Origin: Brevibacterium ihuae
GTDB lineage: Bacteria; Actinomycetota; Actinomycetes; Actinomycetales; Brevibacteriaceae
Assembly: GCF_900184225.1 (NCBI RefSeq)
Contig: NZ_FXWZ01000003.1
Coordinates: 995,684 to 1,059,683 of the forward strand
Direction of reading: 5' to 3'
Length of the DNA stretch: 64,000 bases
Shown here: positions 4,697-54,704 of the stretch, in pieces
Layout of the letters: each line of letters starts with the position of its first letter
Position numbering within the stretch: the stretch's first letter is position 1
Program-made: the position numbers and the translations under genes
The notes under the pieces: generated by a model
Seen by the model: only the letters and a program-made list of their open reading frames with translations
The model's database searches: none
What the model was told of the DNA's origin: nothing

Positions 4697-4789
4697 ACGG
4701 CCCCGGAGTGGGCGGGGGGTCAGTCGCCGAGACGGGCGGCCCCGGAGTGGGCGGGGGTCAGTCGCCGAGGTGGGGAATCAGTCGCCGAG
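4697..4789. repeat. Short tandem duplication at the MOSC gene stop
   Basis: Two near-identical units of about 39 bases contain CCCCGGAGTGGGCGGGGG and then TCAGTCGCCGAG (4697-4730 and 4736-4769). A third copy of TCAGTCGCCGAG at 4777-4789 is the coding end of the MOSC gene, including its stop. The last codons plus stop are thus present three times in a row downstream of the gene, which looks like replication slippage. Confidence 0.75.
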
Positions 4790-5530: not shown

Positions 5531-6783
5531 ATCCCTGCCGGGAGCGGATTCGCGCGGCGGCTCTCGGTGCTCAACAGCAGCACGGTGGCATCGGCGGACA
5601 GCGGATGCTCGGCAGCCCAGGCGCGCACCCCAGCCAGGGTCGAGGCGCCGCAGGGCCCGGAGTCGACGCCGTGCGCCTCGAGGTCGCGGACGGCCTGCGC
5701 AGCCTGGGCGTCGTCGACGGTGACCGCGGCGTCGACCCCGGCGCGGAGCACCGGCCAGGCCGCGGCGGACGGGGTGCCGCAGTTGAGGCCGGCCATGATC
5801 GTCGCCCCGGTCGGCACGGCGGTGAGCTCACCGGCCGCGAGCGAGGCGATGAGGCCCGGCGCGGCGGTCGGCTCCACGCTGAGCACGCTCGGCGCAGGCG
5901 CCTCCGCCGCTCGAGTGGTCACTTCGCTGCGGTTCTCCGCGGGATTCCGAAAGGAACTGACCTCTCGACGGGTGTCGGCAGCGGTCCCGCCTGAGAGCAG
6001 CCCACCGTCGGCGGTCCGGCAACGGCGGACGACGGCCTCGGCGAAGGAGCCCACGCCCACCGGCATCGCCACGAGGTCGACCCGTTCGATCCCCTGTTCG
6101 GCGAGCTGCTGCTCGGCCTCGACGAGGAGCGTCGAATAGCCGTCGACGATCCACTGGGGGATCTCCTCGTAGCCCTCCCACGAGGTGTCCTGGATGAGCA
6201 GCCGCTCCTCACCGGCGGCCTCTCCGGCGTCGGTGTACTCGGCCGCGGCGGCGACGATCGCGTCATAGGGGGCGCTGAGCTCGTCGACGTCCGCACCCTC
6301 CTCTCGGATCCCGGCCTTCGCCTCGGCGGTGATGTCGGCCGGGAGGAAGATATGCGCGGGCAGCCCGAGCAGCCGGGCGGTGTGGGCGACGGCGCGGCCG
6401 TGGTTGCCGTCGGTGGCGGCGACGAGCTCGATGGGCGCCCGCTCGGCGAGCCGGGTGCGGAGCTCGTCCATCGGCAGAGCGGCCTCGGGTGAGCCGAGGC
6501 GGGCGGACAGCGCACGGCAGGCGGCGTAGGAGGCGCCGAGGATCTTGAACGCGGGCAGTCCGAAGCGGGCGGACTCCTCCTTGACGAGCACGCGCGCGCC
6601 GCCGAGCTCGGCGGCGAGCGCGGGCACCTCGATCAGCCGGGTGGGGGCGTAGCCGGGGATCGAGCGGTGGAAGTCGATGACCTCCGGCGCGTGCTCGGTG
6701 CGCCAGGATCGGGCCTCCGGGTTCGCGTGGATCGTGGGTGCCGCGGCGGCGGATGCGGCGGGGGCGTTGGGGGGGTCTGTCAC
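5527..6783 (-). CDS. dpaL: Diaminopropionate ammonia-lyase
   Basis: This PLP-dependent fold-type II enzyme converts 2,3-diaminopropionate to pyruvate and ammonia. Diagnostic features are 'YAPTRLIEVPALAAELG', the PLP lysine motif 'FGLPAFKILGASYA', the phosphate/substrate loop 'TDGNHGRAVAHTA', 'QDTSWEGYEEIPQWIVDGY' and 'GATIMAGLNCGTPS'. These follow the E. coli YgeX/DpaL order closely. Compared with that protein, about 36 extra residues sit between 'RRCRTADGG' and 'SVLSVEPTAAPG'. The extra DNA contains an imperfect inverted repeat (5917-5962), suggesting a small palindromic insertion that kept the frame. Whether the enzyme is still active cannot be judged. It is followed by a translationally coupled MOSC gene. 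Confidence 0.85.
   Translation of the reverse strand: MTDPPNAPAASAAAAPTIHANPEARSWRTEHAPEVIDFHRSIPGYAPTRLIEVPALAAELGGARVLVKEESARFGLPAFKILGASYAACRALSARLGSPEAALPMDELRTRLAERAPIELVAATDGNHGRAVAHTARLLGLPAHIFLPADITAEAKAGIREEGADVDELSAPYDAIVAAAAEYTDAGEAAGEERLLIQDTSWEGYEEIPQWIVDGYSTLLVEAEQQLAEQGIERVDLVAMPVGVGSFAEAVVRRCRTADGGLLSGGTAADTRREVSSFRNPAENRSEVTTRAAEAPAPSVLSVEPTAAPGLIASLAAGELTAVPTGATIMAGLNCGTPSAAAWPVLRAGVDAAVTVDDAQAAQAVRDLEAHGVDSGPCGASTLAGVRAWAAEHPLSADATVLLLSTESRRANPLPAGM
5917..5962. repeat. Imperfect inverted repeat inside dpaL insertion
   Basis: Arms of 16 bases at 5917-5932 and 5947-5962 match at 12 of 16 positions (outer GGTCA/TGACC, inner CGG/CCG) around a 14-base spacer. The palindrome lies inside the extra stretch that separates two conserved blocks of the ammonia-lyase. 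It differs in sequence from the 60-bp intergenic palindromes elsewhere in the window. Confidence 0.5.
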
Positions 6784-6883
6784 CGGGAGCTCCTCCTCGT
6801 CAGGGTCCCGCCACCCTATCGAAGACGAGGCGCGGGCTCAGGTCGGTCTCAGAGCCGCGGCGGCCGAGCTCTCACCGCACGGC

Positions 6884-6977
6884 CCGCCGGCTTCAGCGCC
6901 GCCCGCCGGCCTCAGCGCAGCTTGGCGAACTGAGCGCAGCCCGCCGACCTCAGCGCAGCCCGCCGGCCTCAGCGCAG
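6884..6977. repeat. Tandem repeats downstream of iclR, seeded at its probable stop
   Basis: Degenerate units of about 19 bases with consensus CCCGCCGGCCTCAGCGCAG occur four times, one interrupted by a short spacer. On the minus strand each unit reads CTGCGCTGA then GGCCGGCGGG. The first unit overlaps what looks like the true last codons and stop (KLR*) of the regulator gene. The stretch between dpaL and iclR otherwise holds only the dpaL upstream region, with no further gene seen. Confidence 0.65.
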
Positions 6978-7065
6978 TTTGACGGTGAGCCGGCCGGCGG
7001 CGTGGACGACGTGCGGGGCGATGTCGCCGGCGATGTCGATCTCCGCAGCCGAGGCGCCCCGGCCG

Positions 7066-7794
7066 TCAGTGCACGCGCCACCGGACCCCGCCGGGCCCTC
7101 CGCTCCTGTCCCCCGGCCTTCCGGGCTCCCCCGCGCGCACCGACAGGCCGACGGCGGCGATCGGCCGGTCGAGAACGTCGAACACCGGTGCGGCGACGGT
7201 GGTGATCTCCGTACTGATCTCGCCGCGCTCCACCGCGTAGCCGAGCTCCCGGGTGCGGCGCAGGAGCTCATTGAGCTGCCGCAGGGAGGTGGGCCCGCGC
7301 CCGGTGCGGTTGACGAACGCGTCCTCACCGCTGAGGAGGGCGAGGACCTCGCGTCCGGACAGCGCGGACATGATCGCCCGGCCAGTGGCGGTGAGGTAGG
7401 CGGGCATGCGCACCCCGGTCGCGGTGATGACCGCCGCGGAGCGCACCGCCTGCTCCTTGACGAGGTACACCGTCTCCCAGCCCCGGAGCACCGCGAGCTG
7501 GGCGGTCGCGCCGGTCTGCTCCGCGAGCTCGCGGACGATCGGCTGCGCCATCCGCTGCAGCGGGTTGGTCCGCATGTAGGCGCTGCCGAGCTCGGACACT
7601 CCGGCGCCGAGCAGGTAGCCGGTGGAGGACTTCGTGACGAGGCCGAGCTCCTCGAGCACGGCGAGCAGCTCGTAGACGCTCGAGCGCGGCAGAGCGAGGG
7701 CGCGCACGAGCGCCCCGGCGCTCACCGGCCGGTTGGACCCGGCCAGGTGGCGGAGGATCGCGACGGATCGTCGCAGTGCGGGCACCTCGGGCAT
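7066..7794 (-). CDS. IclR-family regulator, probable histidine-utilisation repressor (3' frame disruption)
   Basis: The N-terminal winged helix (residues 1-65: 'RRSVAILRHLAGSNRPVSAG', 'LPRSSVYELLAVLEELGLV') and IclR effector domain ('YLVKEQ', 'YLTATGRAIMSALSG') are clear. The ATG at 7794 lies just upstream of the alternative reading frames. The C-terminus drifts into a Gly/Arg-rich tail after 'IAAVGLSVRAGE'. In the neighbouring frame a proper IclR ending ('HVVHAAGRLTVKLR') runs to a stop at 6969-6971. A one-base disruption in a C/G run near 7070-7140 is therefore likely, and the natural gene would end at 6969. It is third in the hutI-hutH-iclR operon and is the best candidate to bind the 16-bp palindromes at 10771 and 22129. 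Confidence 0.8.
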   Translation of the reverse strand: MPEVPALRRSVAILRHLAGSNRPVSAGALVRALALPRSSVYELLAVLEELGLVTKSSTGYLLGAGVSELGSAYMRTNPLQRMAQPIVRELAEQTGATAQLAVLRGWETVYLVKEQAVRSAAVITATGVRMPAYLTATGRAIMSALSGREVLALLSGEDAFVNRTGRGPTSLRQLNELLRRTRELGYAVERGEISTEITTVAAPVFDVLDRPIAAVGLSVRAGEPGRPGDRSGGPGGVRWRVH

Positions 7795-7811
7795 GGCCCT
7801 CCTCGTTCCAC

Positions 7812-9458
7812 TCAGTCCGCGGGGACGGTCCGGCCGTCGAGCACCGTCCCGTCGATGTCCACCAGCGTATGCGTGAGCGAGGTCGCGGTCTCCGCGGCCG
7901 CGACGACGCGCCCGTCGGCCACCCGCTCGATCGCCTCGGCGAGCTCCGGGGACAGGAAGCGGTCCGGTCCGGGACCGGGCACCTCGTGGCGCAGCTCGGC
8001 GAGGAGGGCACCGGTGACCGGGCCGGGCGCCTCGGCGCGGAGGTCGATCGCGCGGGCGGCGGTGTAGTACTCGATGCCGAGCACCCGGGCGAGGTTCGTC
8101 ACCGAGGTGCGGAGCTTGCGGGCGGCCGTCCACCCCATCGACACGTGATCCTCCTGCATCGCCGAGGACGGGATCGAGTCGACGGAGGCCGGGGTCGCCT
8201 GCCGCTTCATCTCGCTGACGATCGCCGCCTGCGTGTAGTGGGCGATCATCAGCCCGGAGTCCACCCCGGCGTCCCCGGCGAGGAACGGCGGCAGGCCCTG
8301 GTTGCGGGCGACGTCCATGAACCGATCGGTGCGGCGCTCGGCGATCGAGGCGACGTCGGCGGCGACGATCGCGAGGAAGTCGAGCGCGTGCGCGAGCGGG
8401 GCGCCGTGGAAGTTGCCGTTGGAGGACACGGTGCCGTCGGGCAGCACCACGGGGTTGTCGATCGCGGCACGGAGCTCGCGAGCGGCGGTCTGCGCGGCAA
8501 AAGCGGCGGTGTCCCGGGCGGCCCCGGTGACCTGCGGGGAGCAGCGCAGCGAGTACGCGTCCTGCACGAGGTGCGTGGAGTCCTTGTGCCCGGCGACGAT
8601 CCCGGAGCCCGCGAGCGCGGTGAGCAAGTTCGCCGCACTCGCCGCCTGCCCCGCATGCGGGCGCAGCGGAGTGTGGAGGTCGGGCATGAACACCCGGTCG
8701 GTGCCGTACTGGGCCTCGACGCTCATCGCGGCGGTGAGGTCCGCGGTGGTGAGGAGGTTCTCGAGGTCGAACAGCGCGAGGATGAGCATCCCGAGCATGC
8801 CGTCGGTGCCGTTGACGAGGGCCAGGCCCTCCTTCTCCGCGAGCACGACGGGGGTGATGCCGGCGGCGGCGAGCGCCTCGGCCGCGGTGGTCTGACGCTC
8901 CGTGCCGTCGGCGCCCCGCACCGTCACCGGCCCCTCGCCCATCGCGGCGAGCGCACACGCCGACAGCGGGGCGAGGTCGCCCGAGCAGCCGAGCGAGCCG
9001 TATTCGTGGACGACGGGGGTGATGCCGGCGTCGAGGATCGCGACATAGGTGTCGAGCACCTCGGGCCGCACCCCGGTGCGCCCGGTGGCGAGCGTGCGGG
9101 CGCGCAGGAGCATGAGCGCACGGACGACCTCGCGCTCCACCGGGTCGCCCACACCGGCCGCGTGGGAGCGGATGAGGGATTTCTGGAGCTGGGTGCGCAG
9201 GGCGGCCGGGATGTGGCGCTGGGCGAGCGCACCGAACCCGGTGGACACCCCGTAGACGGGGCGCGGGGCATCGGCGAGCGCCTCGATCGCACGGCGGGAG
9301 GCCGCGACGGACTCCCGCACCCGTTCGGGCACGCGGACCGGCGCGTCATGGCGGGCGACAGCGACGACCTGCGCGAAGGTCAGGCCGTCGGGGTCGAGGT
9401 CGACTGCCGCAGGCCCGGCGAGTGCACTCGTGTCGGGGCGGGGAGAGTTCTGCGTCAT
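7812..9458 (-). CDS. hutH: Histidine ammonia-lyase
   Basis: This enzyme removes ammonia from L-histidine to give urocanate, the first step of histidine breakdown. The 548-residue protein contains the self-processing MIO cofactor triad as Cys158-Ser159-Gly160 in '[14 protein letters not shown]'; a Cys-Ser-Gly form instead of Ala-Ser-Gly is known for actinobacterial enzymes. Further family blocks are '[15 protein letters not shown]', 'NGTDGMLG', '[15 protein letters not shown]' and '[12 protein letters not shown]'. The start overlaps the hutI stop (ATGA at 9455-9458). Order and coupling place it in one transcript with hutI and the IclR regulator. Confidence 0.96.
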
Positions 9459-35943: not shown

Positions 35944-36201
35944 TCATCCGTAGTGATATCGACAGGCAGCGATGCGGATCTCATCGCGAGCGAGTTTGTA
36001 GACGAGTCGATGCTCATCGGTGATGCGCCGGGACCAGTATCCTGCGAAATCGTGTTTGAGGGGTTCCGGTTTTCCGATCCCCTCGTTGCCGTTGCGCTCG
36101 ATCTCCTTGATCAGGCGATTGATGCGTTTGAGAACCTTCCGGTCCTGTGCCTGCCACCACAGGTAGTCCTCCCATGCACCTTCATCCCAGACCAGAAGCA
36201 T
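35944..36201 (-). CDS. yoeB: Txe/YoeB-family mRNA interferase toxin
   Basis: This 85-residue RelE-superfamily toxin cuts mRNA at the ribosomal A site. Length and catalytic positions match E. coli YoeB: Glu46 ('PEPLK'), Arg65 ('DEHRLVYK') and C-terminal His83-Tyr84 ('ACRYHYG'). The N-terminus 'LVWDEGAWEDYLWWQAQDRKVLKRINRLI' is typical. It starts 3 bases after the antitoxin stop. All active residues appear intact, so the module is probably functional. Confidence 0.95.
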   Translation of the reverse strand: MLLVWDEGAWEDYLWWQAQDRKVLKRINRLIKEIERNGNEGIGKPEPLKHDFAGYWSRRITDEHRLVYKLARDEIRIAACRYHYG

Positions 36202-36204
36202 GCT

Positions 36205-36462
36205 TCAGTCGGTCTCGATGAGTTCGTGCGCCTGCCCGCGATCAGCTTCAAGTCGTTCCATTGCATCCAGCAGTCGACGGGCGTTGGTCGGCGATCGCAT
36301 GAGGTAGGCGGTTTCACGAAGCGATTCGTAATCCGCCAAGGAAACAATGACGACCGGCTCATGGCCGGCGCGCGTGATGACGACCGCCTCCCGGTCATTG
36401 GTGACATCGTCGAGCACTTTCGCATAATTGGCCCGTGAATCTGTGTAGCTCATCGTCTTCAT
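36205..36462 (-). CDS. yefM: YefM/Phd-family antitoxin
   Basis: The 85-residue antitoxin starts 'MKTMSYTDSRANYAKVLDDV', the N-terminal DNA-binding part of the Phd/YefM family. The strand 'AVVITRAGHEPVVIVSLADYESLRETAYLM' and an acidic C-terminal helix then wrap the toxin. With YoeB it represses its own promoter. The core operator motif TGTACA lies just upstream of the start. Confidence 0.95.
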   Translation of the reverse strand: MKTMSYTDSRANYAKVLDDVTNDREAVVITRAGHEPVVIVSLADYESLRETAYLMRSPTNARRLLDAMERLEADRGQAHELIETD

Positions 36463-43370: not shown

Positions 43371-44215
43371 CCGGGGTGCACGTGGTGACGCTCGCCTCGG
43401 CGGGCCGGAGGGAGCACGTGCTGTTCCAGCTCGCCGCGCTGCGCCGGTGGTCGCCCGAGGCGGTGCACCACACGGTGCTCATCGGTGAGGAGCCGTTCCC
43501 GGTGCCCGGTTCGGAGATCATCGATCACACCGGTGCCGGCCCGGTAAACCTCTCACGAGCCCGGAACGCCGGCGGGGACGCCGCAGTGGCGGCCGGTGCC
43601 GAGGTCGTCGTGTTCCTCGATGCGGACTGCGCTCCCGGCCAGGCGCTCGTGGAGACGTACGCGCAGGCAGCCGAGCGGATGCCGGATGCTGTGCTCTCCG
43701 GCCCGGTGACGTACCTCGCGGCCGATGACAGGCCGTACGCGCTCGAGGCGCTCGCGGGGATGACCCGCCCGCATCCGGCGAGGCCCGCCCCGGCAGACGG
43801 GCAGCTGCAGCCGGCGGGCGAGGACGAGTACGTGCTGTTCTGGTCGCTGTCCTTCGGCGTCACAGCGAAGACTTGGACGTCGTTGCGGGAGCGCTTCGGC
43901 GTGTTCTGCGAGGAGTACGCGGGCTACGGCGGCGAGGACACCGACTTCGCGATGAACCTCCAGGCCAGCGGGGTGCCGCTCACGTGGGTGGGCGGCGCGC
44001 ACGCCTACCACCAGTGGCACGCGGTCTCGACGCCGCCCGTGGAGCACCTCGACGCGATCCTCGCCAATGCCGTGGTGTTCCACCGCCGCTGGGGCTTCTG
44101 GCCCATGGACGGCTGGCTCCAGGCCTTCGAGGACATGGGGCTGGTCCGGTTCGACGGGGTGGGGTGGGTGAAAAAGGAGAGCAGGCTGGAGTGGCCGGTG
44201 CCGGAGGTGCCGTAA
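43367..44215 (+). CDS. GT2-family glycosyltransferase
   Basis: This 282-residue GT-A enzyme has 'NLSRARNAGGDAAVAAGAEVVVFLDADCAPG' (metal-binding Asp-Ala-Asp) and the galactosyltransferase-type block 'FGVFCEEYAGYGGEDTDFAMNLQASGVPLTWVGGAHAYHQWH'. It starts at a GTG overlapping the previous stop and ends the plus half of the glycan cluster. G+C content drops sharply just after its stop. Confidence 0.87.
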   Translation: MTGVHVVTLASAGRREHVLFQLAALRRWSPEAVHHTVLIGEEPFPVPGSEIIDHTGAGPVNLSRARNAGGDAAVAAGAEVVVFLDADCAPGQALVETYAQAAERMPDAVLSGPVTYLAADDRPYALEALAGMTRPHPARPAPADGQLQPAGEDEYVLFWSLSFGVTAKTWTSLRERFGVFCEEYAGYGGEDTDFAMNLQASGVPLTWVGGAHAYHQWHAVSTPPVEHLDAILANAVVFHRRWGFWPMDGWLQAFEDMGLVRFDGVGWVKKESRLEWPVPEVP

Positions 44216-44400
44216 GCCGGCTACCCCCTCGGGGAGCTGTCACATGTGCCTCGTGCCTGTTGCGAAATCGTCTGCTGGGCAGAGCAAGTAGGATCGCGGC
44301 GCAGACCCTGGTCAGGTTCGGAAACTGCTGATTTCAACTCCGCTCGTGGAGTGATCGTAGGTCACCGTCTAAGAGAAGTTGCCGCGGAACGATCCGATGC

Positions 44401-44487
44401 TCAGCTCCCCCAAGTGGTATTCTCATCTCGATTCTTCGCGACGCGAAAGACATCGTCACGGAACTCTATCGGATAGAGCTTGGGCAT
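44401..44487 (-). pseudogene. IS3-like transposase OrfA remnant
   Basis: The 28-codon frame 'MPKLYPIEFRDDVFRVAKNR' plus eight residues strongly resembles the first 20 residues of IS3-family OrfA transposases and then stops. No downstream helix-turn-helix or OrfB can be followed. It lies in the 420-base gene-poor, A+T-richer gap (44216-44636) that opens the defence island; the rest of the gap shows no gene. It marks a past insertion event at the island's left boundary. Confidence 0.5.
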
Positions 44488-44636
44488 CACACTGATACTC
44501 TTCTCGGCTGACTAGTGAACAGGTCGGATCGAGCGACGCTTATTCGTGCACCAGTCTCACCTGGTCCCCTGCCTGGGCGAGGGTACCCTGGAAACCCGGA
44601 GGATCTGAGTCAAGGTGACTGTGAGGAGGAAGCGAG

Positions 44637-46805
44637 ATGACGGCATTCAGTGACGAAGCATCGTTCACATTTAGCTGGCTCGCTTTGAAGCTGCTCGGGA
44701 GAGGATTGTACTCGAACCCGTGGAGTGCGCTGTCAGAACTCGTCGCAAATGGTCTCGACGCGGGCGCGACAACGGTTTATGTCTACATAGATGCCCGCAA
44801 CAAATCGAACGCCGTGGTCGAAGTCATCGACAATGGCAGCGGAATGTCTCGCGATGACATCGACACGTATGTAAAGGTGGGATACGACAAGCGCAAGGCC
44901 GCGAGTCGCACCAGCTTCGCTGATGCTGGCCCCATGGGACGGAAAGGGATTGGCAAGCTTGCCGCTTTGTTTCTCTCGCCGCATTTCTATCTGTCGACCA
45001 GACACGTGGAAGGCAAGTCGTCCTGGGAACTGGACGCTCGCGAAGCTGAGGTAAACCTCGACGCCTACCCAAGCCTTACAGCTGTAGATTCGACCCCTTC
45101 GACCTCGAATGACGAAATGTGGGCAGACCTCGAAACCGGCACACGGCTCACGATGCTTGGCGTTGATCTCACTGGATATGGAACCCAGTCCGTCAAAGCG
45201 CTTGGGACTCGTCTTGCAAACCAGTTCCTGCTTCCAGTTAACGGGACGCCCCAAATTCTGTTCTGGGTCCAGGAGTCCAATGTTCAAACTAAAGACAGGT
45301 ATAAACCAGTTAAGAAGAGTATCGCGTTCGGAAACCTCGCCGAGATCGTGATGAACTTCCCCGACTCATTCCCCAGGCCAAATGAACTCACCTCTCCAGT
45401 TAAGGATCTAAAGATCCCCGCGAAGGGCCTGCCCGGTGACATCTACACCCACACGCCTCGGCGTTCCCCTATGCGAGTGGATCCCGAAGACGACGAGGCC
45501 TGGAGCGAGATCGCTACCGAGGTTGACCCTAACAATTGCACCTTCCTCGGCGTACCCTACAAGCTGACCGGTTGGATCGGCGTTCATGCCACCATTGACA
45601 ACAGTTCCGCGCAGGTGAACGACGCACGGTTCAGGAAAAACAAGTATTACAACCCCGCCGAGCTCCGCGTCTACGTGCGTGGAAAGCTGGCAAGTGATCG
45701 ACTGCTCTCACAACTCGGGCTCACCGGGACCTATGTAAACTACATCGAAGGTGAAATATCGTTTGACCTCTTGGATGAGGATTCGCTTCCTGACATCGCA
45801 ACTTCAAACCGACAAGACTTCGACGAAACAGACAAGCGCGTGACGTTGTTACGCGCGCTCGTGCGACCTCTGGTTCGCTATTTAATCCAGGAACGCAACA
45901 AGTTGGCGAGCCAGATCTCCACCGCGATCAACGAAGAGAAGCAACGCCGCGAAACTGCGAGTAAACGGCACTTCTCTGAGCAGGTTCATGCCGATCTGAA
46001 GCAGCACGACGAGATCCCACAGAGCACTAGGGACGAACTTCAGATGGTCATTACGAACAAGATCCAAGGAAATGTGAAGCCGAAACAGTCTTTTCGAGTA
46101 TTCATTTCTCACGCCAGGACCGATCGAGCCTTCGCTGGGTTCATAGATGACCTTATTCGGACAAGAGGCGCGAAGCCGGAAGAGATATTCTTTACTTCTC
46201 GTACCGGGGCGACAGATGTGTTGCTCGACGCGCAGGCATTGAGCGAAGTGGTCAAACGAAATATCACGGACGACAATACACTAATCTTCTATTTGACCAG
46301 CAAGAACTTCCTCGCGAGCCAGTTCTGCCTATTCGAGGGTGGAGCAGGATGGGCAACCCGGTCCGTAAGTGAGTATCTAAAGTTGAACGTCGAGTACGAC
46401 ACCATCCCCGGATGGCTGACCAACGGACGAGGTGAACCGGCTCTTCTCGGCGACGACAACACGATCGAACTGACGCCAGAGATCCACAACTACCTGGTTG
46501 ACGGAGTCCTAAATCCAATGATTGCCCACCTGAACCGTGGACGAGACATTGCAGGCGAGCAGACCATCCCCTCTTTCACGAGCGCGGACTTCCCTACTGA
46601 GCTGGAGATGGAAAAGGAAAACAAGTCGAAGCAAGACTATTTTGACCCCGAAATCGTCGCGCATTGGGACACAGTAGTCCAGCGCCATATGGCAGGCTAC
46701 CTGGAGCAATACTTCGCCCCGTCGGCCGAAGCGAAACAAATCAAGGAGCTTGAAGACGAGAACGCTCAGCTACGGGTGCAGCTGAAGGAGCCACCGACTC
46801 CCTGA
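44637..46805 (+). CDS. GHKL ATPase fused to a TIR domain (putative defence protein)
   Basis: Residues 1-210 are a GHKL (Hsp90/MutL/MORC-like) ATPase: N-box Glu34-Asn38 in 'ALSELVANGLDAGATTVYVYI', G1 box Asp65-Gly69 in 'VIDNGSGMSRDDI', and ATP-lid 'GRKGIGKLAAL' at 101-111. Residues about 210-420 continue as a transducer-like region with 'NDARFRKNKYY' and 'ATSNRQDFD', reminiscent of MORC-type proteins. Residues about 485-600 are a TIR domain: 'SFRVFISHARTDRAFAGFIDDLI', with the S-x-x-C-x-x-E motif 561-567 placing a catalytic-type Glu567. A short coiled coil ends the protein. The ATG follows AGGAGGAAGCGAG. It probably couples DNA or nucleotide sensing to NAD+ cleavage, but no experiment is implied by the sequence. 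Confidence 0.78.
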   Translation: MTAFSDEASFTFSWLALKLLGRGLYSNPWSALSELVANGLDAGATTVYVYIDARNKSNAVVEVIDNGSGMSRDDIDTYVKVGYDKRKAASRTSFADAGPMGRKGIGKLAALFLSPHFYLSTRHVEGKSSWELDAREAEVNLDAYPSLTAVDSTPSTSNDEMWADLETGTRLTMLGVDLTGYGTQSVKALGTRLANQFLLPVNGTPQILFWVQESNVQTKDRYKPVKKSIAFGNLAEIVMNFPDSFPRPNELTSPVKDLKIPAKGLPGDIYTHTPRRSPMRVDPEDDEAWSEIATEVDPNNCTFLGVPYKLTGWIGVHATIDNSSAQVNDARFRKNKYYNPAELRVYVRGKLASDRLLSQLGLTGTYVNYIEGEISFDLLDEDSLPDIATSNRQDFDETDKRVTLLRALVRPLVRYLIQERNKLASQISTAINEEKQRRETASKRHFSEQVHADLKQHDEIPQSTRDELQMVITNKIQGNVKPKQSFRVFISHARTDRAFAGFIDDLIRTRGAKPEEIFFTSRTGATDVLLDAQALSEVVKRNITDDNTLIFYLTSKNFLASQFCLFEGGAGWATRSVSEYLKLNVEYDTIPGWLTNGRGEPALLGDDNTIELTPEIHNYLVDGVLNPMIAHLNRGRDIAGEQTIPSFTSADFPTELEMEKENKSKQDYFDPEIVAHWDTVVQRHMAGYLEQYFAPSAEAKQIKELEDENAQLRVQLKEPPTP

Positions 46806-46821
46806 CTGCCATGCCGTCACA

Positions 46822-47988
46822 TTAATTTACGCTCAATTCGAACTGTCGGGCCTCGTTAGGAAGCATATCCTGTTCCATTCTCGTCAGTAGTGGAATAAGA
46901 TAGTTGACCGAAAGCCACTCCACGACTGGAGCGCAAACAGCATCACCAAAGCCAGAGTATGCGTGATGTTCTTTCACTCCATCGATCGGGTATTCCGGAA
47001 CACCCATTAGTGAGGAGTACTCGCGCGGAGTCATCCACCGGATGTGGACGTCGCCCTGCCCGAGGAATACGACCGCCTGCTTCGACGATCCGCCGCTAGA
47101 AGTGCGTAGGCAACCAGCAATGCCGTCGGAACGCAATTCCCAGCGTGGGGTTCCCTGGCGCATTCGACGGTACGCGGTGCGAGCGGCACCCGTTTTCCCG
47201 TCACGAAGCGCTTTGAATCGCTCCAACTGCAAATCTGACAACGAGCCGATAAAGGCGTCGACGCGCTCGGTCGACCACCAACGCGGATCATCCTCACTCA
47301 GTTTCTCCAAATACTCAGCGAGGCCGTCTGTGAGGAGCGGCGGCGGCTCGGGCACACGCAGCTTGTGTGTCACAAGGGAGGGGTCCTCAAAGATCTGGGC
47401 CAACCAGTCGGGACGTAGCGGAGATGGCTCAGTCACACTCTCGACGGGCGCATTGGTGCCGATGAGGAACAGTCGCGGCCTGGATTGAGGTACAAAACGG
47501 CGGGCATCCAAACTTAGAACATCCACCGAGTATCCAAGTCCGTTGAGTGATCGGATTGCAGCCACGATGTCTTGTCCAGAGTGGCTCGTGGCGAATGCCG
47601 TGACGTTCTCTAGCGCGATAACCGGTGGACGCCTACTGCCGAGTTTGCTCAAGGCCTTGATGAAGTGCCAAAACGTGGAACTCGCGATTCCACGGTGGAG
47701 TCCAGCACGACCTCCGGCGATAGATAGGTCTGTGCAAGGGAACGACGCCCAAGCGATGTCGGTGTTCTTTGGAAGCATCTCGCGCCCCACCTTGCCCAAA
47801 TCCTCAAGGAGGAATGTATGGCCTTCTGACGTTCCAAAGTTCCGCTCGAACATCGCATGCTTCGTGGGCGCCACGTCATTAGACCACACGACTTCGATCC
47901 CGGCCTTAGACATCCCTAGTCGAGCGAGGCCGATCCCGGCGAAGAATTCGGCAGCACGCCACGCGCGTGGCGAGATCTCAGCTGTCAT
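46822..47988 (-). CDS. Cytosine-5 DNA methyltransferase (first)
   Basis: This 388-residue m5C methyltransferase has SAM motif I 'AAEFFAGIGLARLGM' (12-26), the catalytic Pro-Cys85 in 'ASFPCTDLSIAGG', 'ALENVTAF' with the ENV triad at 127-129, 'VPQSRPRLFLIG' at 167-177, and C-terminal 'RWMTPREYSSLMGVPE' and 'SGFGDAVCAPVVEW'. The target-recognition region is between about residues 190 and 300. The gene converges on the GHKL-TIR gene with 16 bases between stops, and lies downstream of the second methyltransferase on the same strand. Confidence 0.95.
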   Translation of the reverse strand: MTAEISPRAWRAAEFFAGIGLARLGMSKAGIEVVWSNDVAPTKHAMFERNFGTSEGHTFLLEDLGKVGREMLPKNTDIAWASFPCTDLSIAGGRAGLHRGIASSTFWHFIKALSKLGSRRPPVIALENVTAFATSHSGQDIVAAIRSLNGLGYSVDVLSLDARRFVPQSRPRLFLIGTNAPVESVTEPSPLRPDWLAQIFEDPSLVTHKLRVPEPPPLLTDGLAEYLEKLSEDDPRWWSTERVDAFIGSLSDLQLERFKALRDGKTGAARTAYRRMRQGTPRWELRSDGIAGCLRTSSGGSSKQAVVFLGQGDVHIRWMTPREYSSLMGVPEYPIDGVKEHHAYSGFGDAVCAPVVEWLSVNYLIPLLTRMEQDMLPNEARQFELSVN

Positions 47989-48133
47989 CTCTAGCTTCCC
48001 TCCAAGGCATGCTGGCTAAAGCTCATCCGGTGCATCACCCCGAATCCCGGATCGTTCGAGCCTAAGCCTAGTTTCTCCATGCCGTACTTGCTTCCACCGC
48101 CAGCGCAAGGTAGCTACTACGCGTTCAAGACCC

Positions 48134-49294
48134 TCAAGCGAAGGCAGCGAACCTAGATGCTCTCTCTCGGTCCATGTATCCGAGCTGGCTCATCAGTGCC
48201 CGCGCGACGGCCTTGCCGAGTTCCAGTGGGACGGCATTGCCAAGCTGGCGTTGGACATCTGCCCGGCTCCCGTCGATTTTAAAGTCGTCGGGGAACGACA
48301 TCAGCCGCAGCATCTCGTTGACGCGCAGGCGCCGGGCTCGCAGTTCGTCGGAATCGGTGCGGATGTTTTCCCAGTGGAAAGGGCCCACCCATGGCCCGGG
48401 CTGGGCCTGAAGCGTAGTCGAGGGCCGGTTGGGGTCGAGGCGCAGCAGGAAGGTCCAGTAGCGGCTTCGCCACTCGAAGTGATTGCGGCCGCCGTATCGC
48501 TCGGTGTGCCAGAGATAGTTTTGGCCCGGCGGGATCTCCGCAGCCAGCTCCCCGTAGCTGCCGTCAACGATCTCCTCCTCGGACGCCCGTACAAGTAGCG
48601 GGAGGCCGGCAAATGCCTGGGCCGCGGTGACGTGCGGAATCTTGCTAGCGTCCACAGACCGGCTGTGCTCGCTCCACCCGGAGTGAGTCGGCTCGGGGAA
48701 GTTGAATCTTTCCCCATCTCTACGGCCGACGACGAAGACGCGGCGCCGCAACTGCGGGACACCGTAGTCAGCAGCGAGTAACACCTTCCACTGCGGGTTG
48801 TAACCTAGCTCACCCAGAGCCTTTAGAAGCCGTTCGAACTGCGCCTTATGGGTCTTGTACGTCAACCCCTGGACATTCTCCAGGATGAATGCCTCGGGGC
48901 GGGCCTCGCGCACAACGCGGACGTACTCGTCCAGCAAGGATGCGTTGGGGTCGCGGCTCTCGCGCTTCTGCTCCAGCCAGAATCCGGACTTGGAGAATGG
49001 GGTGCAGGGAGGACCACCGACGACTAGCACCGGATCCGCGGATTGCAGGCCGGCGGTGGCGAGGATCTGATCAGTCGGCACCTCACGAATGTCGCCCGTG
49101 AGCGTCTTCGTGTCGTGGAAATTCGCCTTTAATGTTTCAAGTGCGGGTTCGTTGTAGTCCGTCGCGACCGAGACCCGCAACAACCCACTCCCAGGGTCAT
49201 CGGTCGCGAGAGGCTCCGCGTCGGCTCGCTCGACGGCGAGATCGAGCCCACCTGCGCCGGAGAACAGACTCACCACCGGAAGCTGCTCGCTCAT
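48134..49294 (-). CDS. Cytosine-5 DNA methyltransferase (second)
   Basis: This 386-residue m5C methyltransferase has 'VVSLFSGAGGLDLA', catalytic Cys97 in 'VVGGPPCTPFSKSG', 'ILENVQGL' (ENV at 139-141), 'YGVPQLRRRVFVVG', and C-terminal 'LRLMSFPDDFKIDG' and 'QRQLGNAVPLELGKAVA'. The ATG at 49294 opens directly on the conserved fold; the longer frame upstream is not conserved in style. It is divergent from the nuclease gene, 145 bases away, the usual arrangement that lets the methyltransferase be made first. Confidence 0.95.
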   Translation of the reverse strand: MSEQLPVVSLFSGAGGLDLAVERADAEPLATDDPGSGLLRVSVATDYNEPALETLKANFHDTKTLTGDIREVPTDQILATAGLQSADPVLVVGGPPCTPFSKSGFWLEQKRESRDPNASLLDEYVRVVREARPEAFILENVQGLTYKTHKAQFERLLKALGELGYNPQWKVLLAADYGVPQLRRRVFVVGRRDGERFNFPEPTHSGWSEHSRSVDASKIPHVTAAQAFAGLPLLVRASEEEIVDGSYGELAAEIPPGQNYLWHTERYGGRNHFEWRSRYWTFLLRLDPNRPSTTLQAQPGPWVGPFHWENIRTDSDELRARRLRVNEMLRLMSFPDDFKIDGSRADVQRQLGNAVPLELGKAVARALMSQLGYMDRERASRFAAFA

Positions 49295-49439
49295 ATGCCA
49301 CCTCATTCCTGTTGCGCATGGCCCGTCATCCGGACCAGCGGCAACCATACAAGTATCGTCTAGTGGAGTATGCCAGCAGCTTCTGACATGCCATCTACGA
49401 CCGTTGCGTATGCAATGTCTCACTACCTTGGGAGGCGCT

Positions 49440-50618
49440 ATGGACGACGAGTTAATCGCTCGGCGCGCGTTCGGCGAAGTCTACCGAGTAAGGAATCGCG
49501 TCGACCTCCACGAATTCCTTCTCCAGGCTGTGAGGGCGTCCGGCGGTCGCATCCTTTATACAAGTGACCCTGGCCGCGCGCCCGTCTACCTTGGCGTCCA
49601 GCTAGGCTCCGACGAGCGGATTGGGATGCTCATTTACCTCTTCCGGATCACCCACAATGCAATCAGGAACCGCCCCGATGACGAGGTCCGCGGTCAGCTC
49701 CGTTACGGCTCCGAGGAGAGCTGGAAGCGAAAGCACCCCGTTGGACGTGACATCGCCGGCGTCGACGTAACGATGATCCTCGGCGTCGACCTCGCCGCCG
49801 GAGTGATCCTCGGACTGGACGCGAACCTGTGGGACCCGCTGCCAATGGGCATTTCCTTCTACACGAAGACCGCCGATATCGAACTTACCCAAGAGACCGG
49901 ATGGCAAGTCTGGGAAAAGAACAATCGCGCGGGTAACAAACGCACCGAGGCACGCTCCCCCACAAACCTGGAGACCGTCGTCGCGTTTACGCCAGACCGG
50001 CTTATCGACTATGCGCGTCTCGAACGCCGGGCGACATCGTTACATTTGGATCCGCCACTGCGGTTCGCTGCTGCCACCGCAATGGCTGACCGGGCCTTGC
50101 CGGACGAGACACAGAGCCGCCACGTGCTCGAGCAGCAGTTTGCTCTGACAAGCGAGCAGATCCTCGACATCATCGGCGGCCGCAACCGGCTTTCCGTAGC
50201 CGTGCGCGGAGGTGTGGCCGAATACCACCTGGAGCAACAACTCACCGGCGCGCCCGGCATCGCTTCAGTGCAGCGGCTCGACGTCGATGCGATGCACGAC
50301 TTCGACGTCACACTCGATGATGGAACGCTACTACGAGTCGAGTGCAAGAACGCGAGCCCCAAAATCTCGGCCGACGGTCGGTTCAAGGTCGAGGTGCAGA
50401 AGACCCGCGCTTCCAAGGGGAACCCGGCCTCGCGGTTCTACGCAGTGGACGGGTTCGACGTCGTCGCGGCATGCCTATTCTCCCCGACCGGGCGCTGGGG
50501 ATTCCGTTTCGGCCGCACAGCGGACTTAGCGCGGCACAAGACCTACTTCGATCGGCTCGCCCCAATCCAGCCAATCACCGACGACTGGGTCGGCAGTCTT
50601 CCAGCGATCAAGCATTAG
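49440..50618 (+). CDS. PD-(D/E)XK restriction endonuclease-like protein
   Basis: This 392-residue protein has a C-terminal nuclease core: helix 'GGVAEYHLEQQLTG' (Glu261/Glu265), then 'HDFDVTLDDG' (Asp287/Asp289), then 'LLRVECKN' with Glu301-Cys-Lys303, matching the D...ExK pattern. The N-terminal 190 residues ('VYLGVQLGSDERIGMLIYLFRITHN', 'DPLPMGISFYTKTADI') match no domain I recognise and may confer DNA specificity. The ATG at 49440 has GGGAGG five bases upstream. Two partner methyltransferases suggest an asymmetric, type-IIS-like target, which is an inference. Confidence 0.75.
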   Translation: MDDELIARRAFGEVYRVRNRVDLHEFLLQAVRASGGRILYTSDPGRAPVYLGVQLGSDERIGMLIYLFRITHNAIRNRPDDEVRGQLRYGSEESWKRKHPVGRDIAGVDVTMILGVDLAAGVILGLDANLWDPLPMGISFYTKTADIELTQETGWQVWEKNNRAGNKRTEARSPTNLETVVAFTPDRLIDYARLERRATSLHLDPPLRFAAATAMADRALPDETQSRHVLEQQFALTSEQILDIIGGRNRLSVAVRGGVAEYHLEQQLTGAPGIASVQRLDVDAMHDFDVTLDDGTLLRVECKNASPKISADGRFKVEVQKTRASKGNPASRFYAVDGFDVVAACLFSPTGRWGFRFGRTADLARHKTYFDRLAPIQPITDDWVGSLPAIKH

Positions 50619-50716
50619 CTGTACTTTCCCGTGACGTTGTGAATGCGTACTGCTGGCGTTTGGCAGGGATGCTCCGGTCCAAATTGCATGCCCATCAGAG
50701 TTTCGCTTGTGAAAGA

Positions 50717-50729
50717 TTAGATGGTCTAA
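50717..50729. promoter_or_regulatory. Short palindrome upstream of the decayed antitoxin gene
   Basis: TTAGATGGTCTAA is a perfect dyad with a 3-base centre, 27 bases upstream of the GTG of the antitoxin-like pseudogene. It may be the old autoregulatory operator of that gene. Confidence 0.4.
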
Positions 50730-50755
50730 CACTCTTCCCCGCCCGGAGGTCACCC

Positions 50756-51180
50756 GTGACGGAGACCATTGCCAATTCACAGCTCACCACCGATGTCCTC
50801 GTCCAACTGACCGAAGTTCGCAATAGCAGCGAGTCTCCGCACATCAGGGGCGTGGTCAGCCGTGTCACCGAATCAGCCATCCACGGCCGTGATCTCGCCG
50901 GACTCAACACTTCTGCGGTCATCTCTCTGCAGGAAGCCCCAGACAGCCTCGAAATGAGCAGCACTCACCTGTAAGAACTGCTCGATCGCGGCGCGCTTCC
51001 CTCCCCCGAGTCGGAAGCTTCCGCAAGATCCAGGCGAGTGACCCCGAGGAGTTCCGGGCGCAACGCGAGGTCGGCACGCAGGTACTCGCCAAACGCCTGG
51101 CTTCTCAGGACCGCACACGCACATCTGCTATCGACGAGATCACGGACCGGCTCGGAGACACCCCCGTGTCAACGGCCGAC
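50756..51180 (+). pseudogene. Decayed excisionase-type HTH antitoxin gene
   Basis: The GTG at 50756 has GGAGGT upstream. The first 72 codons end '...AVISLQEAPDSLEMSSTHL' and then TAA at 50972-50974. Reading on in the same frame gives 'ELLDRGALPS', and after a one-base shift near 51005 'RVGSFRKIQASDPEEFRAQREVG...SAIDEITDRLGDTP'. Joined, these read as the Xis/excisionase-type helix-turn-helix found in type II antitoxins (S/H-x-YELLDRG-LP-x-RVGSFR). The gene therefore carries one nonsense codon and one frameshift. It ends abruptly where the next minus-strand gene begins. No intact toxin follows. Confidence 0.5.
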
Positions 51181-51182
51181 CT

Positions 51183-51908
51183 TCACCCCTGTCGCAGCCG
51201 TTCGAATCGGACAGGCGGCTCAGGATGGCCCGCCGGAAGGGTCACGTCGTACCCAAGCGACTCGAGGACTTCGATCGCCGATTCGGGGTCATCCCGAACT
51301 GCCGCTTTCGTCTGAGTGCGTCGCCACTGCATCCGGCCCTCGGCGAGAGCCGCTTTCGCCGTCGCTGCGTCGTCCACACCGAATTCATCGATCAGCATTT
51401 CGAGGATGTCCTCGAGGCTCGGTCGGAATCGATGTCCGCCGACCGGGAAGTGCAACTCGCTGATTGCCTGCACCCTGGTGCTGTCTGCACGCCGTGCTCC
51501 TCGTTTCGTCCCTTTGCCCGCTCGCACCATCAAGGCCGTGAAGGCATCGCGATGGGCATGAAGCTGAAGGTGCGCCGCCGGAATCTGTTGGGCGTCGCGC
51601 ACGTATTCGTAGCGGAAGAGCGGCTCGGCGGGGCCAGCGTAAACTGCGATCTTCGACTTTTCGATGGCCATGTGTTTTCCGACGCCGTCGAGGCAGCACC
51701 AGTATTCGACCTTCAGGTGGATCAGGGGCTCGTTGTTGACGGACAGAGGGATACCGTCTGCAGGGTCCTGTCGAACGGCAAAGCGGAGACCTCCCTTCAC
51801 TGCGAGCGCCTTGAACGGATGGCATTTCGGCGCGATCGCACTGACGGTCTCAGTGAACTCTGCCGCGAACTGAGTTGCTTGGAACTCGAGGTCTCCAGGC
51901 TCACTCAC
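51183..51908 (-). CDS. Uncharacterised protein, second gene of an overlapping pair
   Basis: This 241-residue protein from the GTG at 51908 overlaps the stop of the 60-residue gene by 8 bases. I do not recognise the family. Visible features are 'FKALAVKGGLRFAVRQDP', 'IHLKVEYWCCLDG', 'GKHMAIEKSKIAVYAGPAEPLFRYEYVRD', 'PAAHLQLHAHRDAFTALM', then the conserved-looking 'SELHFPVGGHRFRPSLEDILEMLIDEFGVD' and 'ALESLGYDV'-like end. The histidine-rich 'HLQLHAHRD' and 'HFPVGGHRFRP' segments could be metal- or nucleotide-binding. Base composition is island-like. The small-then-large coupled layout resembles a toxin-antitoxin or regulator-effector pair. Confidence 0.7.
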   Translation of the reverse strand: MSEPGDLEFQATQFAAEFTETVSAIAPKCHPFKALAVKGGLRFAVRQDPADGIPLSVNNEPLIHLKVEYWCCLDGVGKHMAIEKSKIAVYAGPAEPLFRYEYVRDAQQIPAAHLQLHAHRDAFTALMVRAGKGTKRGARRADSTRVQAISELHFPVGGHRFRPSLEDILEMLIDEFGVDDAATAKAALAEGRMQWRRTQTKAAVRDDPESAIEVLESLGYDVTLPAGHPEPPVRFERLRQG

Positions 51909-52083
51909 CGAGTAGAAAATCCAACTCGCAGAGATCGTCGTACAGTTCGAGCTCCTTGTCGCGGAGCTCGTACGCTTCACCGCGCTCTTTGAAGCGGGCT
52001 TCGTCGCCCACCTCGCGAATGATCTCAGCTCGTCGGTGTTCCGCTTCATTTCGGGAGATGAGCTCGGTTACCACTGCAGTCAT
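51901..52083 (-). CDS. Small acidic protein, first gene of an overlapping pair
   Basis: This 60-residue protein is highly charged and helix-forming ('RRAEIIREVGDEARFKERGEAYELRDKELELYDDLCELDFLL'). The ATG at 52083 has GGAGGCGAC upstream. No family is recognised. Its size, charge and overlap with the downstream 241-residue gene resemble antitoxin-like partners, but this is speculation. It lies at the right edge of the A+T-richer island. Confidence 0.65.
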   Translation of the reverse strand: MTAVVTELISRNEAEHRRAEIIREVGDEARFKERGEAYELRDKELELYDDLCELDFLLGE

Positions 52084-52219
52084 GTCGCCTCCTTCGCCGT
52101 ACACATCATGATAAGGCCAATGTAGACGGAGGCGCTGACACGGCCCGCCCGGCAAACGGACATCGATTTCTCGCCGGCATTGTCGGCTCGATGAAGAACC
52201 CGTTGTCCCAGCAGCGACA

Positions 52220-52244
52220 CCGGATTGCGCATCACCGAATCCGG
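52220..52244 (-). terminator. Weak hairpin after the E1-like gene
   Basis: CCGGATT (52220-52226) pairs with AATCCGG (52238-52244) around an 11-base loop, starting 10 bases beyond the stop of the minus-strand E1-like gene. A 7-bp stem is modest, so the call is tentative. Confidence 0.35.
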
Positions 52245-52253
52245 CCGGTGGCC

Positions 52254-54704
52254 CTACCGCCCCACGACGTCCATCGCCGCCCGCTCGATCGACCCGGCGT
52301 CGATCCCGTGCAGCCGGTACGCCTCGGACACCGATGACGCCTGCCCGAACTGCGTCACACCCAGGTTGACCATCCGGTCCCCGCGCACGCCGGCGAGGAA
52401 CGCGAGCGTGTGCGGGTGCCCGTCGATGACGGTCACGAGAGGTGCCGGGTAGTCCGCGGGGAAGAGCGCCTCGGCGATGGCCGACCGCTCCCCTGCCGCC
52501 ACCCGGTGGCGGTCCTGCACCGACCGGAACACGAGGTCCGGGCTCGTCAGGCACACGACTCCGGCGGTGATCCCGCGCCCGGCGAGCGCCTGCGCTGCGG
52601 CGACGACCTCGGTCATCATCGCCCCGACCCCGACGAGCACGACCTCGTCCTCGTACGCCGGGTGCGCGCTGATCCGGTAGCCGCCGGCCACCGCGTGCTC
52701 ACGCCTGCGCGCCAGCAGCACCGGATCCTCCGGCAGCGCCGCGATCGACTGGTCCACCGGCCGGGTCGACAGCCGGAAGTACGCCGAGTGCCCGCCGGGC
52801 ACGCCGATCGACTTCATCGCCTCGAGCATCGTCCACTCGAGGTCCTGCGCGAACGCCGGCTCCCAGGCCACGAGCTCGGGGATCTCCATCGTCACCGACG
52901 GGGTGTTGAACGACTGGTGCGCTCCGCCCTCCGGCGCGAGCGTCACGCCCGAGGGAGTGCCGACCATGATCGACTGACCGCCGGCGTACATGCCGAACGT
53001 CCACGGCTCGAGCGCCCGGTTGATGAACGGGTCGTAGATCGTCGCGATCGGGATGAGCGGCTGCCCCCACCGGCTGTACGTCGCACCGAGCTCCCCGGCG
53101 AGGCTGACGAGGTTGACCTCCGCGATGCCGAGCTCGATGTGCTGCCCGCCGGACACCTCCTGCCACTTGAGCACCCGCTCGCGATCGTCGCTGAACCAGT
53201 CGTGCCGACCGGTGAGCGACCACACGCCGGTCTTGTTGATCCAGCCGCCGAGGTTCGTCGACGTCGCGACGTCCGGGCTCAGCGTCACCACCCGGTCTGC
53301 GACCTCGGGCACCGCCCGCTTGAGGTCGGAGAGGAACCGGCCGAGCGTCGCCTGCGTGCTCGTCACCTGCTTGTGGCTCCACTCGAGCTCGTCGGGGATC
53401 GCGCCGACGGCCTCGTCCGCGATGGGCTGCCGGGCGAGCCGGGAGGCGGTCGCCGCGCACAGCTCACCGGCCGGCGAGTCCGCATCGAACCGCTGCCACG
53501 GAGCGCCGAGGTCCATCCCGGAGATCTCCGCGAGCTCGCGCATCTGCGACTCGGTGAGCTGCGCGGAGTGGTTGTTCGGGTGTCCCTCGGTCGCCAGGCC
53601 GCGGCCCTTGATCGTGTAGGCGAAGATCACCGTCGGCCGGGTGTCGTCGATCTGCGCGAACGTGCCGAGCAGTCGGGAGATGTCGTGACCGCCGAGGTCG
53701 CGGACCACCTCGGCGAGCTCCCGGGGCGCGAGCGACTCGACGAGCTCCCGCAGGCCGGACTCCTCCGCGTCGTCGACCCCGGCGAGCACGCGCTCGGCGA
53801 TCTCGTCCGGGTGCGAGCGGAGGATCCGCTGGTACTCCTCGTTGGGCATGTCGGTCATCCGCTTCTCGAACGCGGCCCCGCCCGGCCCGTCGAACAGCGC
53901 CTGGATGCGCGAACCCCAGGTGCACGTGAGCACCTGCCAGTCCGCCGCGGCGAACATCCCCTGGAGGCGGGCGATCTGCACGTCGGGGATGACCCGGTCG
54001 AGCGACTGGCGGTTGAGGGCGACGATCCACACTGCCTCCCCGAGCTGGCGCACCTCGGGGTCGATGATCGCCTCCCACACCGCGCCCTCGTCCATCTCCG
54101 CATCGCCGAGCAGCGAGTAGAAGCGGCCGGCCTCCGGCGTCTGCGGGAAGTGCTCGCGCACGTACCGGTGGCTCAGCGCCGCCCACAGCGGAGCGGTCGC
54201 CCCGATGCCCACCGAACCGGTCGAGAAGTCGACGGTGTCCGGGTCCTTGGCCCGCGAGGGGTACGGCTGGAGGCCGCCCTTCGCCCGCAGCGTGGGGAGG
54301 TACTTCTCGTCGAGGTCGCCGAGCAGGTAGTTGATCGCGTGGAGCACCGGGGAGGCGTGCGGCTTGACCGACACCCGGTCCGCCGCGGTGAGCTCGGAGA
54401 ACCACAGCGCCGTCATGATGCCCACCATCGACGCGCTCGACGACTGGTGCCCGCCGACCTTGACCCCGTCCGGGTTCTCCCGACCGCGGTTCGCCGCGTC
54501 GATCATCGCCGTCGCGGTCCACAGCACCCGCTGCGCGATCTCGTCGAGCACCGCCTCGTCGGCCGAGGCGGTCGCCGACAGCGGCCGCGAGTTCACGCTC
54601 GGCGGGTCGAGCTGGGTGCTCGTCTCGAACTGGTGGCGGTCGTCCGCCGCGGCGTCGGTGTCGCGGGAGCGCGCGTCCGGGCGAGCGGTCGAGTCGATGC
54701 TCAT
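52254..54704 (-). CDS. AceE-like 2-oxoacid dehydrogenase E1 (transketolase family)
   Basis: This 816-residue thiamine-diphosphate enzyme resembles homodimeric pyruvate dehydrogenase E1 but is somewhat shorter than the usual ~900 residues. It has 'GGHQSSSASMVGIMTALWF', 'LSHRYVREHF', the ThDP/Mg motif Gly200-Asp-Ala-Glu-Met-Asp...Asn231, 'FAYTIKGRGLATEGHPNNHSAQLT', and transketolase-like C-terminal blocks. No E2/E3 genes are adjacent. It follows acdS by 118 bases, so a dedicated role in oxidising the 2-oxobutyrate made by ACC deaminase is attractive but unproven. The ATG at 54704 has AGGAGAACC upstream. Confidence 0.85.
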   Translation of the reverse strand: MSIDSTARPDARSRDTDAAADDRHQFETSTQLDPPSVNSRPLSATASADEAVLDEIAQRVLWTATAMIDAANRGRENPDGVKVGGHQSSSASMVGIMTALWFSELTAADRVSVKPHASPVLHAINYLLGDLDEKYLPTLRAKGGLQPYPSRAKDPDTVDFSTGSVGIGATAPLWAALSHRYVREHFPQTPEAGRFYSLLGDAEMDEGAVWEAIIDPEVRQLGEAVWIVALNRQSLDRVIPDVQIARLQGMFAAADWQVLTCTWGSRIQALFDGPGGAAFEKRMTDMPNEEYQRILRSHPDEIAERVLAGVDDAEESGLRELVESLAPRELAEVVRDLGGHDISRLLGTFAQIDDTRPTVIFAYTIKGRGLATEGHPNNHSAQLTESQMRELAEISGMDLGAPWQRFDADSPAGELCAATASRLARQPIADEAVGAIPDELEWSHKQVTSTQATLGRFLSDLKRAVPEVADRVVTLSPDVATSTNLGGWINKTGVWSLTGRHDWFSDDRERVLKWQEVSGGQHIELGIAEVNLVSLAGELGATYSRWGQPLIPIATIYDPFINRALEPWTFGMYAGGQSIMVGTPSGVTLAPEGGAHQSFNTPSVTMEIPELVAWEPAFAQDLEWTMLEAMKSIGVPGGHSAYFRLSTRPVDQSIAALPEDPVLLARRREHAVAGGYRISAHPAYEDEVVLVGVGAMMTEVVAAAQALAGRGITAGVVCLTSPDLVFRSVQDRHRVAAGERSAIAEALFPADYPAPLVTVIDGHPHTLAFLAGVRGDRMVNLGVTQFGQASSVSEAYRLHGIDAGSIERAAMDVVGR

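Follow-up and report, generated by a model that had tools for sequence, protein, structure and literature searches.

Gene Content of the Low-GC Island

The window analysed here is a stretch of 64,000 nucleotides from Brevibacterium ihuae. It contains an island with a GC content of 58.8%, compared with 72.9% in the left flank and 69.1% in the right flank, in agreement with the A+T-richer island described in the sequence-only reading. A GHKL-TIR fusion protein, two m5C methylases (M1 and M2) and an MTaX1 protein (R2) were annotated in the island (Table 1). The start codon of GHKL-TIR is ATG. The genome (3.10 Mb) has two m5C methylases, both located within the island. A 288 aa ORF (51183–52049, minus strand) showed no match in Pfam, PADLOC or NCBIfam up to E = 1.

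Table 1. Features of the island in window coordinates; L006 and L076 are loci compared with the window.
Feature	Position	Strand	Basis
Low-GC island with two RM-type modules	44170..52254	.	GC content; ends of blastn homology to G003
Shine-Dalgarno AGGAGG of GHKL-TIR	44624..44629	+	Sequence
GHKL-TIR fusion protein, 722 aa	44637..46805	+	ORF; matches in Pfam, PADLOC, NCBIfam and PDB; 79%-identical L006 homologue
GHKL ATPase core, residues 28–135 (E34, N38, D65, G67, G69)	44718..45041	+	HATPase_c_3; motifs invariant in four GHKL-TIR rows
GRKGIGK ATP-lid motif, residues 101–107	44937..44957	+	Sequence; GRKG-x-GK invariant in four rows
S5-like region (putative S5), residues 311–400, LPDxAxSNRQ motif	45567..45836	+	Conserved in four GHKL-TIR rows
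TIR domain, residues 486–600	46092..46436	+	PADLOC spbK; PDB SpbK; 93% identical to L006
E567, aligned with SpbK E192	46335..46337	+	Profile alignment to PDB chain
M1, m5C DNA methylase, convergent with GHKL-TIR	46822..47988	-	Pfam DNA_methylase 4.5e-36; motifs PC, ENV, QxRxR
M2, second m5C methylase	48134..49423	-	Pfam 1e-57; 49.7%-identical L076 homologue adjoining the R2 homologue
R2, MTaX1 + PD-(D/E)XK-like protein	49404..50618	+	MTaX1 1.2e-17; weak PDDEXK_5 0.059; 45%-identical L076 homologue

The blastn homology to G003, the nearest among the relatives compared, ended at 44169 and restarted at 52255. G003 keeps the flanking genes (glycosyltransferase 73% and transketolase-like protein 93% identical) and has at the island site a NaeI-family RM pair (L072, 1680–3596), composed of an m5C methylase and an enzyme matching Pfam NaeI at 2.3e-95. 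RM cassettes therefore seem to be exchanged at this site, which, judged from this one exchange, looks like an RM-cassette hotspot. The relatives G001 and G011 had the right flank alone in common with the window. A Vsr-like match in two pieces was located at 3817–3973 of L072. Elsewhere in the window, a YefM/YoeB toxin-antitoxin pair was found at 35944–36462 (Pfam 2.1e-22 and 2.5e-38).

The convergent GHKL-TIR and M1 pair is kept in L006, an Actinomycetaceae MAG (JAUNUK010000001.1), with identities of 79% and 81.2%, and the two stop codons are 16 nt apart in the window and L006 alike. A tblastn search of 18 kb of L006 at 1e-5 gave no match to M2, R2 or the 288 aa ORF. The homologues of M2 and R2 adjoin each other in L076, and GHKL-TIR was not found in the 4.1 kb of L076 around them. 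M2 and R2 thus have no close homologue in these 18 kb of L006 and are paired in L076, which indicates that the island comprises two separate modules. Two methyltransferases and a nuclease had been placed beside the fusion in the sequence-only reading; M1 does travel with GHKL-TIR, whereas M2 and R2 form a pair of their own, in which R2 is likely the restriction enzyme partnering M2. A single system spanning the whole island was considered and rejected on the same grounds. The module of two convergent genes, GHKL-TIR and M1, is new here. M2 and R2 are divergent in the window; the L076 pair is on one strand, with a Vsr gene nearby.

ATPase Head of the GHKL-TIR Protein

An intact GHKL head with N38, D65/G67/G69 and GRKGIGK had been proposed, and these motifs were found at those positions, within a match to Pfam HATPase_c_3 over residues 28–135 (E = 1.4e-19). 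E34, N38, D65, G67, G69 and GRKG-x-GK were invariant in an alignment of four GHKL-TIR proteins, two of which are closely related. The S5-like region was conserved across the same four rows, and the full-length AlphaFold model was poor. The MORC S5 motif GhXhhpXXRhl, searched as a regular expression, gave no match in five GHKL-TIR proteins. The mean pLDDT was 33.8 for the full protein and 43.2 for the C-terminal part, with alignments only three rows deep, too low for the models to be used. The assignment of the TIR domain therefore stands on sequence profiles.

TIR Domain and Predicted NADase Activity

The search of defence-system HMMs matched PADLOC spbK to residues 413–577 (8.7e-16), and SpbK (PDB 9phb) was recovered at 1.7e-10 when PDB sequences were searched with a profile built from three rows of the C-terminal part. 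Pfam TIR_2 gave E = 0.019, which is under the Pfam cut-off. The other scanned GHKL-TIR proteins also matched spbK (L047, 2.1e-17; L029, 2.7e-15; L009, 1.6e-21). The SpbK matches start at position 78 of 308 in the PADLOC model and at residue 125 of the PDB chain.

The Glu567 proposed as a catalytic-type residue aligned with E192 of SpbK, and SpbK G194 and W197 aligned with G569 and W572; SpbK residue numbers are given with an offset deduced from the PDB chain numbering. The motif ExGAxW was present in all five GHKL-TIR proteins. SpbK S121, S122 and N191 correspond to A493, R494 and F566 and are not conserved. E192 is among the suggested NAD+-binding residues of SpbK, S121 and S122 are suggested NAD+ contacts, and the substitutions N191R, G194R and W197A impaired filament formation as well as NADase activity, with complete loss of defence (PMC12847820).

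The amino acid identity between the window protein and its L006 homologue was 80.4% for residues 1–230, 63.8% for 231–310, 88.9% for 311–400, 82.4% for 401–485, 93.0% for the TIR domain and 63.9% for the tail. The dN value was 0.043 for the TIR domain, at saturated synonymous sites, and 0.126 for the whole protein (79.1% identity). The TIR domain is thus the best-conserved part of the protein, which indicates purifying selection. Judging by these profile matches and residues, GHKL-TIR probably cleaves NAD+. An abortive outcome of its action is somewhat less certain, and we still favour it. The protein shares with SpbK of Bacillus subtilis the TIR sequence, the catalytic-type Glu and the CC-interface Gly and Trp, and differs in the GHKL-S5 head before the TIR domain and in the three residues that are not conserved.

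Relation to paraMORC4

No named system with this arrangement was known to the sequence-only reading. A protein with GHKL, S5 and a C-terminal TIR domain, found in RM neighbourhoods, was in fact named paraMORC4 by Iyer, Abhiman and Aravind in 2008 (PMC2292703), and the GHKL-TIR fusion itself is not new. The window protein resembles paraMORC4, as described there, in its intact GHKL motifs, its C-terminal TIR domain and its RM neighbourhood with DNA methylases. It differs in the TIR motif: the Hx[ST]xD given for paraMORC4 reads HARTD (492–496) in the window protein. Hx[ST]xD was absent from the TIR domains of all five GHKL-TIR proteins, so we call the window protein paraMORC4-like rather than a strict member. 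In the window, GHKL-TIR is also paired convergently with the gene of an M1-type methylase, and no helicase gene was seen in the island. An open-access literature search, made partly by loose queries, returned no experimental test of any GHKL-TIR protein.

The 2008 paper proposed nuclease activity or nucleotide binding for the paraMORC4 TIR domain, not NAD+ cleavage (PMC2292703). On that proposal, GHKL-TIR would be an ordinary restriction enzyme with TIR as its nuclease or as a nucleotide-binding regulator. In its favour, nuclease C-termini are found on other heads of the family, and the window protein lacks the two serines suggested as NAD+ contacts in SpbK. Against it, E567, G569 and W572 have counterparts in the NADase SpbK, and TIR domains have been shown since 2008 to cleave NAD+ (PMC7159879). 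We regard this explanation as very unlikely.

Distribution and Neighbourhoods of GHKL-TIR

Among 396 genomes sampled from the phylum, a profile of four rows gave full-length matches in two, one of them the window's own genome. With a single-sequence query, the own genome alone gave a full-length match, both among 99 relatives and among the 396 phylum genomes. This query missed G157, so that the frequencies of GHKL-TIR are lower bounds; the protein looks rare. Scans of viral contigs added one GHKL-TIR, and the phage collection gave one match, annotated as ParaMORC3. Five distinct loci were obtained: the window, L006, L009 (Listeria, NZ_CP030101.1), L018, which is the same as L029 (IMG/VR), and L047/L066 (G157).

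An m5C methylase was present at all five loci. In L009 it is located 5 nt upstream of GHKL-TIR, and in L018 it follows downstream, beyond a Vsr gene (Pfam 5.2e-30). In L066, where Vsr adjoins GHKL-TIR, the methylase is about 15.7 kb away, and matches to DISARM DrmA, DrmB, DrmC, DrmD and DrmMI lie between the two. The defence setting and the co-occurrence of the fusion with m5C methyltransferases, both anticipated from the sequence, were thus borne out, and the homologues outside defence neighbourhoods that had been named as a refutation were not seen among the five loci. In a control, 16 of 30 GHKL loci lacking TIR, some of them short stretches, also had an m5C methylase. This indicates that the association extends across the broader GHKL family and is not special to TIR.

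Other genes were also recorded around these loci. In L006, an ORF of 1801 aa (806–6211) with a sub-threshold REase_MTES_1575 match in the Pfam scan lies near GHKL-TIR, not adjoining it. In L009, an ORF matching GmrSD_C (46–594, Pfam 4e-29) is upstream of the GHKL-TIR pair, likewise not adjoining; genes of thiamine type, recognised by eye, lie between them. A DUF4917 gene (6817–7908) is immediately upstream of GHKL-TIR in L018. In L047 (435–7946)/L066, Vsr and GHKL-TIR lie at one end of the DISARM set, and an HgiDII-like m5C methylase is located at its opposite end.

These neighbourhoods bear on two other explanations of the protein. The TIR protein might itself detect a phage protein or a DNA structure, with the methylase riding along or protecting the island. 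Its TIR domain is SpbK-like, and SpbK is switched on by the phage portal YonE (PMC12847820); the methylases at the 16 control loci are also in line with a passive partner. However, every GHKL-TIR locus has a methylase although the two TIR clades have different methylase families, and a restriction-type GHKL head precedes the TIR domain, with the SpbK matches starting only at model position 78 or chain residue 125. Direct sensing is rather unlikely.

The TIR protein might also act as a guard that does not read DNA methylation and is set off by loss of the methylase or of a neighbouring restriction system, or by a phage blocking either of them, in the manner of an addiction or anti-anti-restriction switch. 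Consistent with this, two complete modules adjoin within the island, GHKL-TIR is found beside DISARM genes in L047/L066, and the restriction-type genes of L006 and L009 are near the protein. However, the neighbours vary by locus (the MTaX1 pair, the MTES_1575-like gene, GmrSD_C or DISARM), other genes intervene in L006 and L009, and the element that recurs is the combination of GHKL-TIR and an m5C methylase. The sensor of disturbed restriction proposed in the sequence-only reading is of this kind. We consider it unlikely, and the comparative data fit the TIR protein better as a restriction partner.

Comparison of the Head with BbrUII/HgiDII Restriction Enzymes

The NCBIfam model NF050001 for the BbrUII/HgiDII restriction enzyme has 659 positions and a cut-off of 550 bits. 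It matched the proteins of L007, L008, L010, L060 and L061 over nearly the whole model, with 767, 830, 801, 728 and 809 bits. The three scanned GHKL-TIR proteins (window, L029 and L047) scored 172–214 bits (2.2e-50 to 3e-63), and their matches stayed within about the first 400 positions, reaching 397–399 in L047 and L029. The window protein scored 171.9 bits, under the cut-off of 550, with its best stretch at residues 13–222. Heads scoring below the cut-off were also found with other C-termini, namely HEPN/Ymh in L057 (188 bits) and L062 (193 bits) and a weak Shedu match in L051 (264 bits). The GHKL-HEPN/Ymh genes are located at 4597–6273 of L057 and 5698–7380 of L062, and the latter adjoins an m5C methylase.

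The tree of the heads was built from 26 of 27 rows, L021 being left out. It placed five TIR heads and eight HgiDII-type heads in one group (94/91, unstarred), with the HEPN and Shedu C-termini elsewhere; three of the eight HgiDII-type rows (L020, L049 and L059) were assigned by similarity and not by NF050001. The TIR rows formed one side of a branch with moderate support (83/89, unstarred) and a long-branch warning. The HgiDII rows by themselves were unresolved (41/66).

By sequence, the head of GHKL-TIR resembles that of BbrUII/HgiDII, and the TIR domain appears in place of the C-terminal part of these enzymes, a relation that is new here. The two have in common a related head and an adjacent m5C methylase, which in the window is M1, 16 nt away and of another methylase type. 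They differ in the C-terminal part and in the score (172 bits against the cut-off of 550).

Methylases and the Restriction-Enzyme Slot

For the comparison of families, methylases were hand-picked from loci with a clear neighbour, and the target-recognition block was set by the columns of M1. Over the rows listed, the methylases of L009, L029 and L066 were 45–54% identical to methylases beside HgiDII-type enzymes, with 46–61% in the recognition block and 42–51% in the rest. Nine comparisons between other methylase families gave 9–33% in the block. In one of these nine, the L009 and L062 methylases were 33% identical in the block and 29% outside it, so that the block was no lower there. M.HgiDII methylates GTCGAC (PMC5867850). 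The methylases of L009, L029 and L066 may share this site, to judge from the methylases beside HgiDII-type enzymes. M1 is of a different type from the HgiDII methylases (about 24–31% identity in partial alignments), and the case for a shared target of head and methylase is accordingly less direct in the window than in L009, L029 and L066.

Eleven M1-type loci (at least 49% identity) had as partner GIY-YIG (six), DUF4928 (two), GHKL-TIR (two, the window and L006) or none (one). Apart from the window and L006, eight of nine thus had a GIY-YIG or DUF4928 partner. GIY-YIG was called by Pfam for L067, L068, L069 and L078, and for L079 and L080 by 57–69% identity to L067–L069. The plasmid part of this tally comprised the best six of 4086 matching records (49% identity or more). 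H65 was entered under "none", since its methylase match falls into three pieces and a nuclease partner was not seen. H66 and H67 (both Enterobacter, DUF4928) might not be independent cases. The recognition blocks of the eight methylases paired with GIY-YIG or DUF4928 were 46–51% identical to M1, and the rest was 45–55% identical. H68, a lower-ranked match to M1, had 38% identity, 30% in the recognition block, and no evident partner. A search for a solved relative of the L068 GIY-YIG partner, which might have given the target site of M1, returned no match.

The TIR protein is therefore located beside methylases of two families that usually pair with restriction enzymes, which indicates that GHKL-TIR fills the restriction-enzyme slot. 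This comparison is more simply explained by replacement than by a guard.

Proposed Mechanism

GHKL-TIR and M1 may form an RM-like two-gene defence module in which a suicide effector replaces the restriction enzyme; we put this just short of an even chance. That GHKL-TIR responds to unmethylated sites is, in our estimate, a nearly balanced question. In its most novel form, to which we give a probability of about 0.4, this reading is a methylation-directed suicide system in which the restriction head has been kept and the nuclease exchanged for an NADase, with unmarked foreign DNA leading to NAD+ loss. M1 would methylate the host genome at its own sites. The GHKL-S5 head would bind ATP, dimerise and engage incoming DNA without the M1 mark. 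Clustering would gather the TIR domains into composite active sites, as in SpbK, and NAD+ would be cleaved. The loss of NAD+ would halt the cell before phage maturation.

If the proposal is true, a single protein unites restriction with abortive infection, cell shutdown is governed by the self/non-self code of restriction, and a protein architecture predicted in 2008 obtains a function. In that case the head family, which occurs with nuclease, HEPN, Shedu-like and TIR C-termini, would be an ATPase of general use that senses DNA and can be coupled to interchangeable effectors. Another GHKL head with a C-terminal defence effector is found in VcSduA, a Shedu protein of paraMORC3 type. Its effector is a nuclease and not TIR, and the available text on VcSduA describes no methylase partner for it (PMC12137116). 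VcSduA protects against phages, and its E27A (ATPase) and K557A variants do not (PMC12137116).
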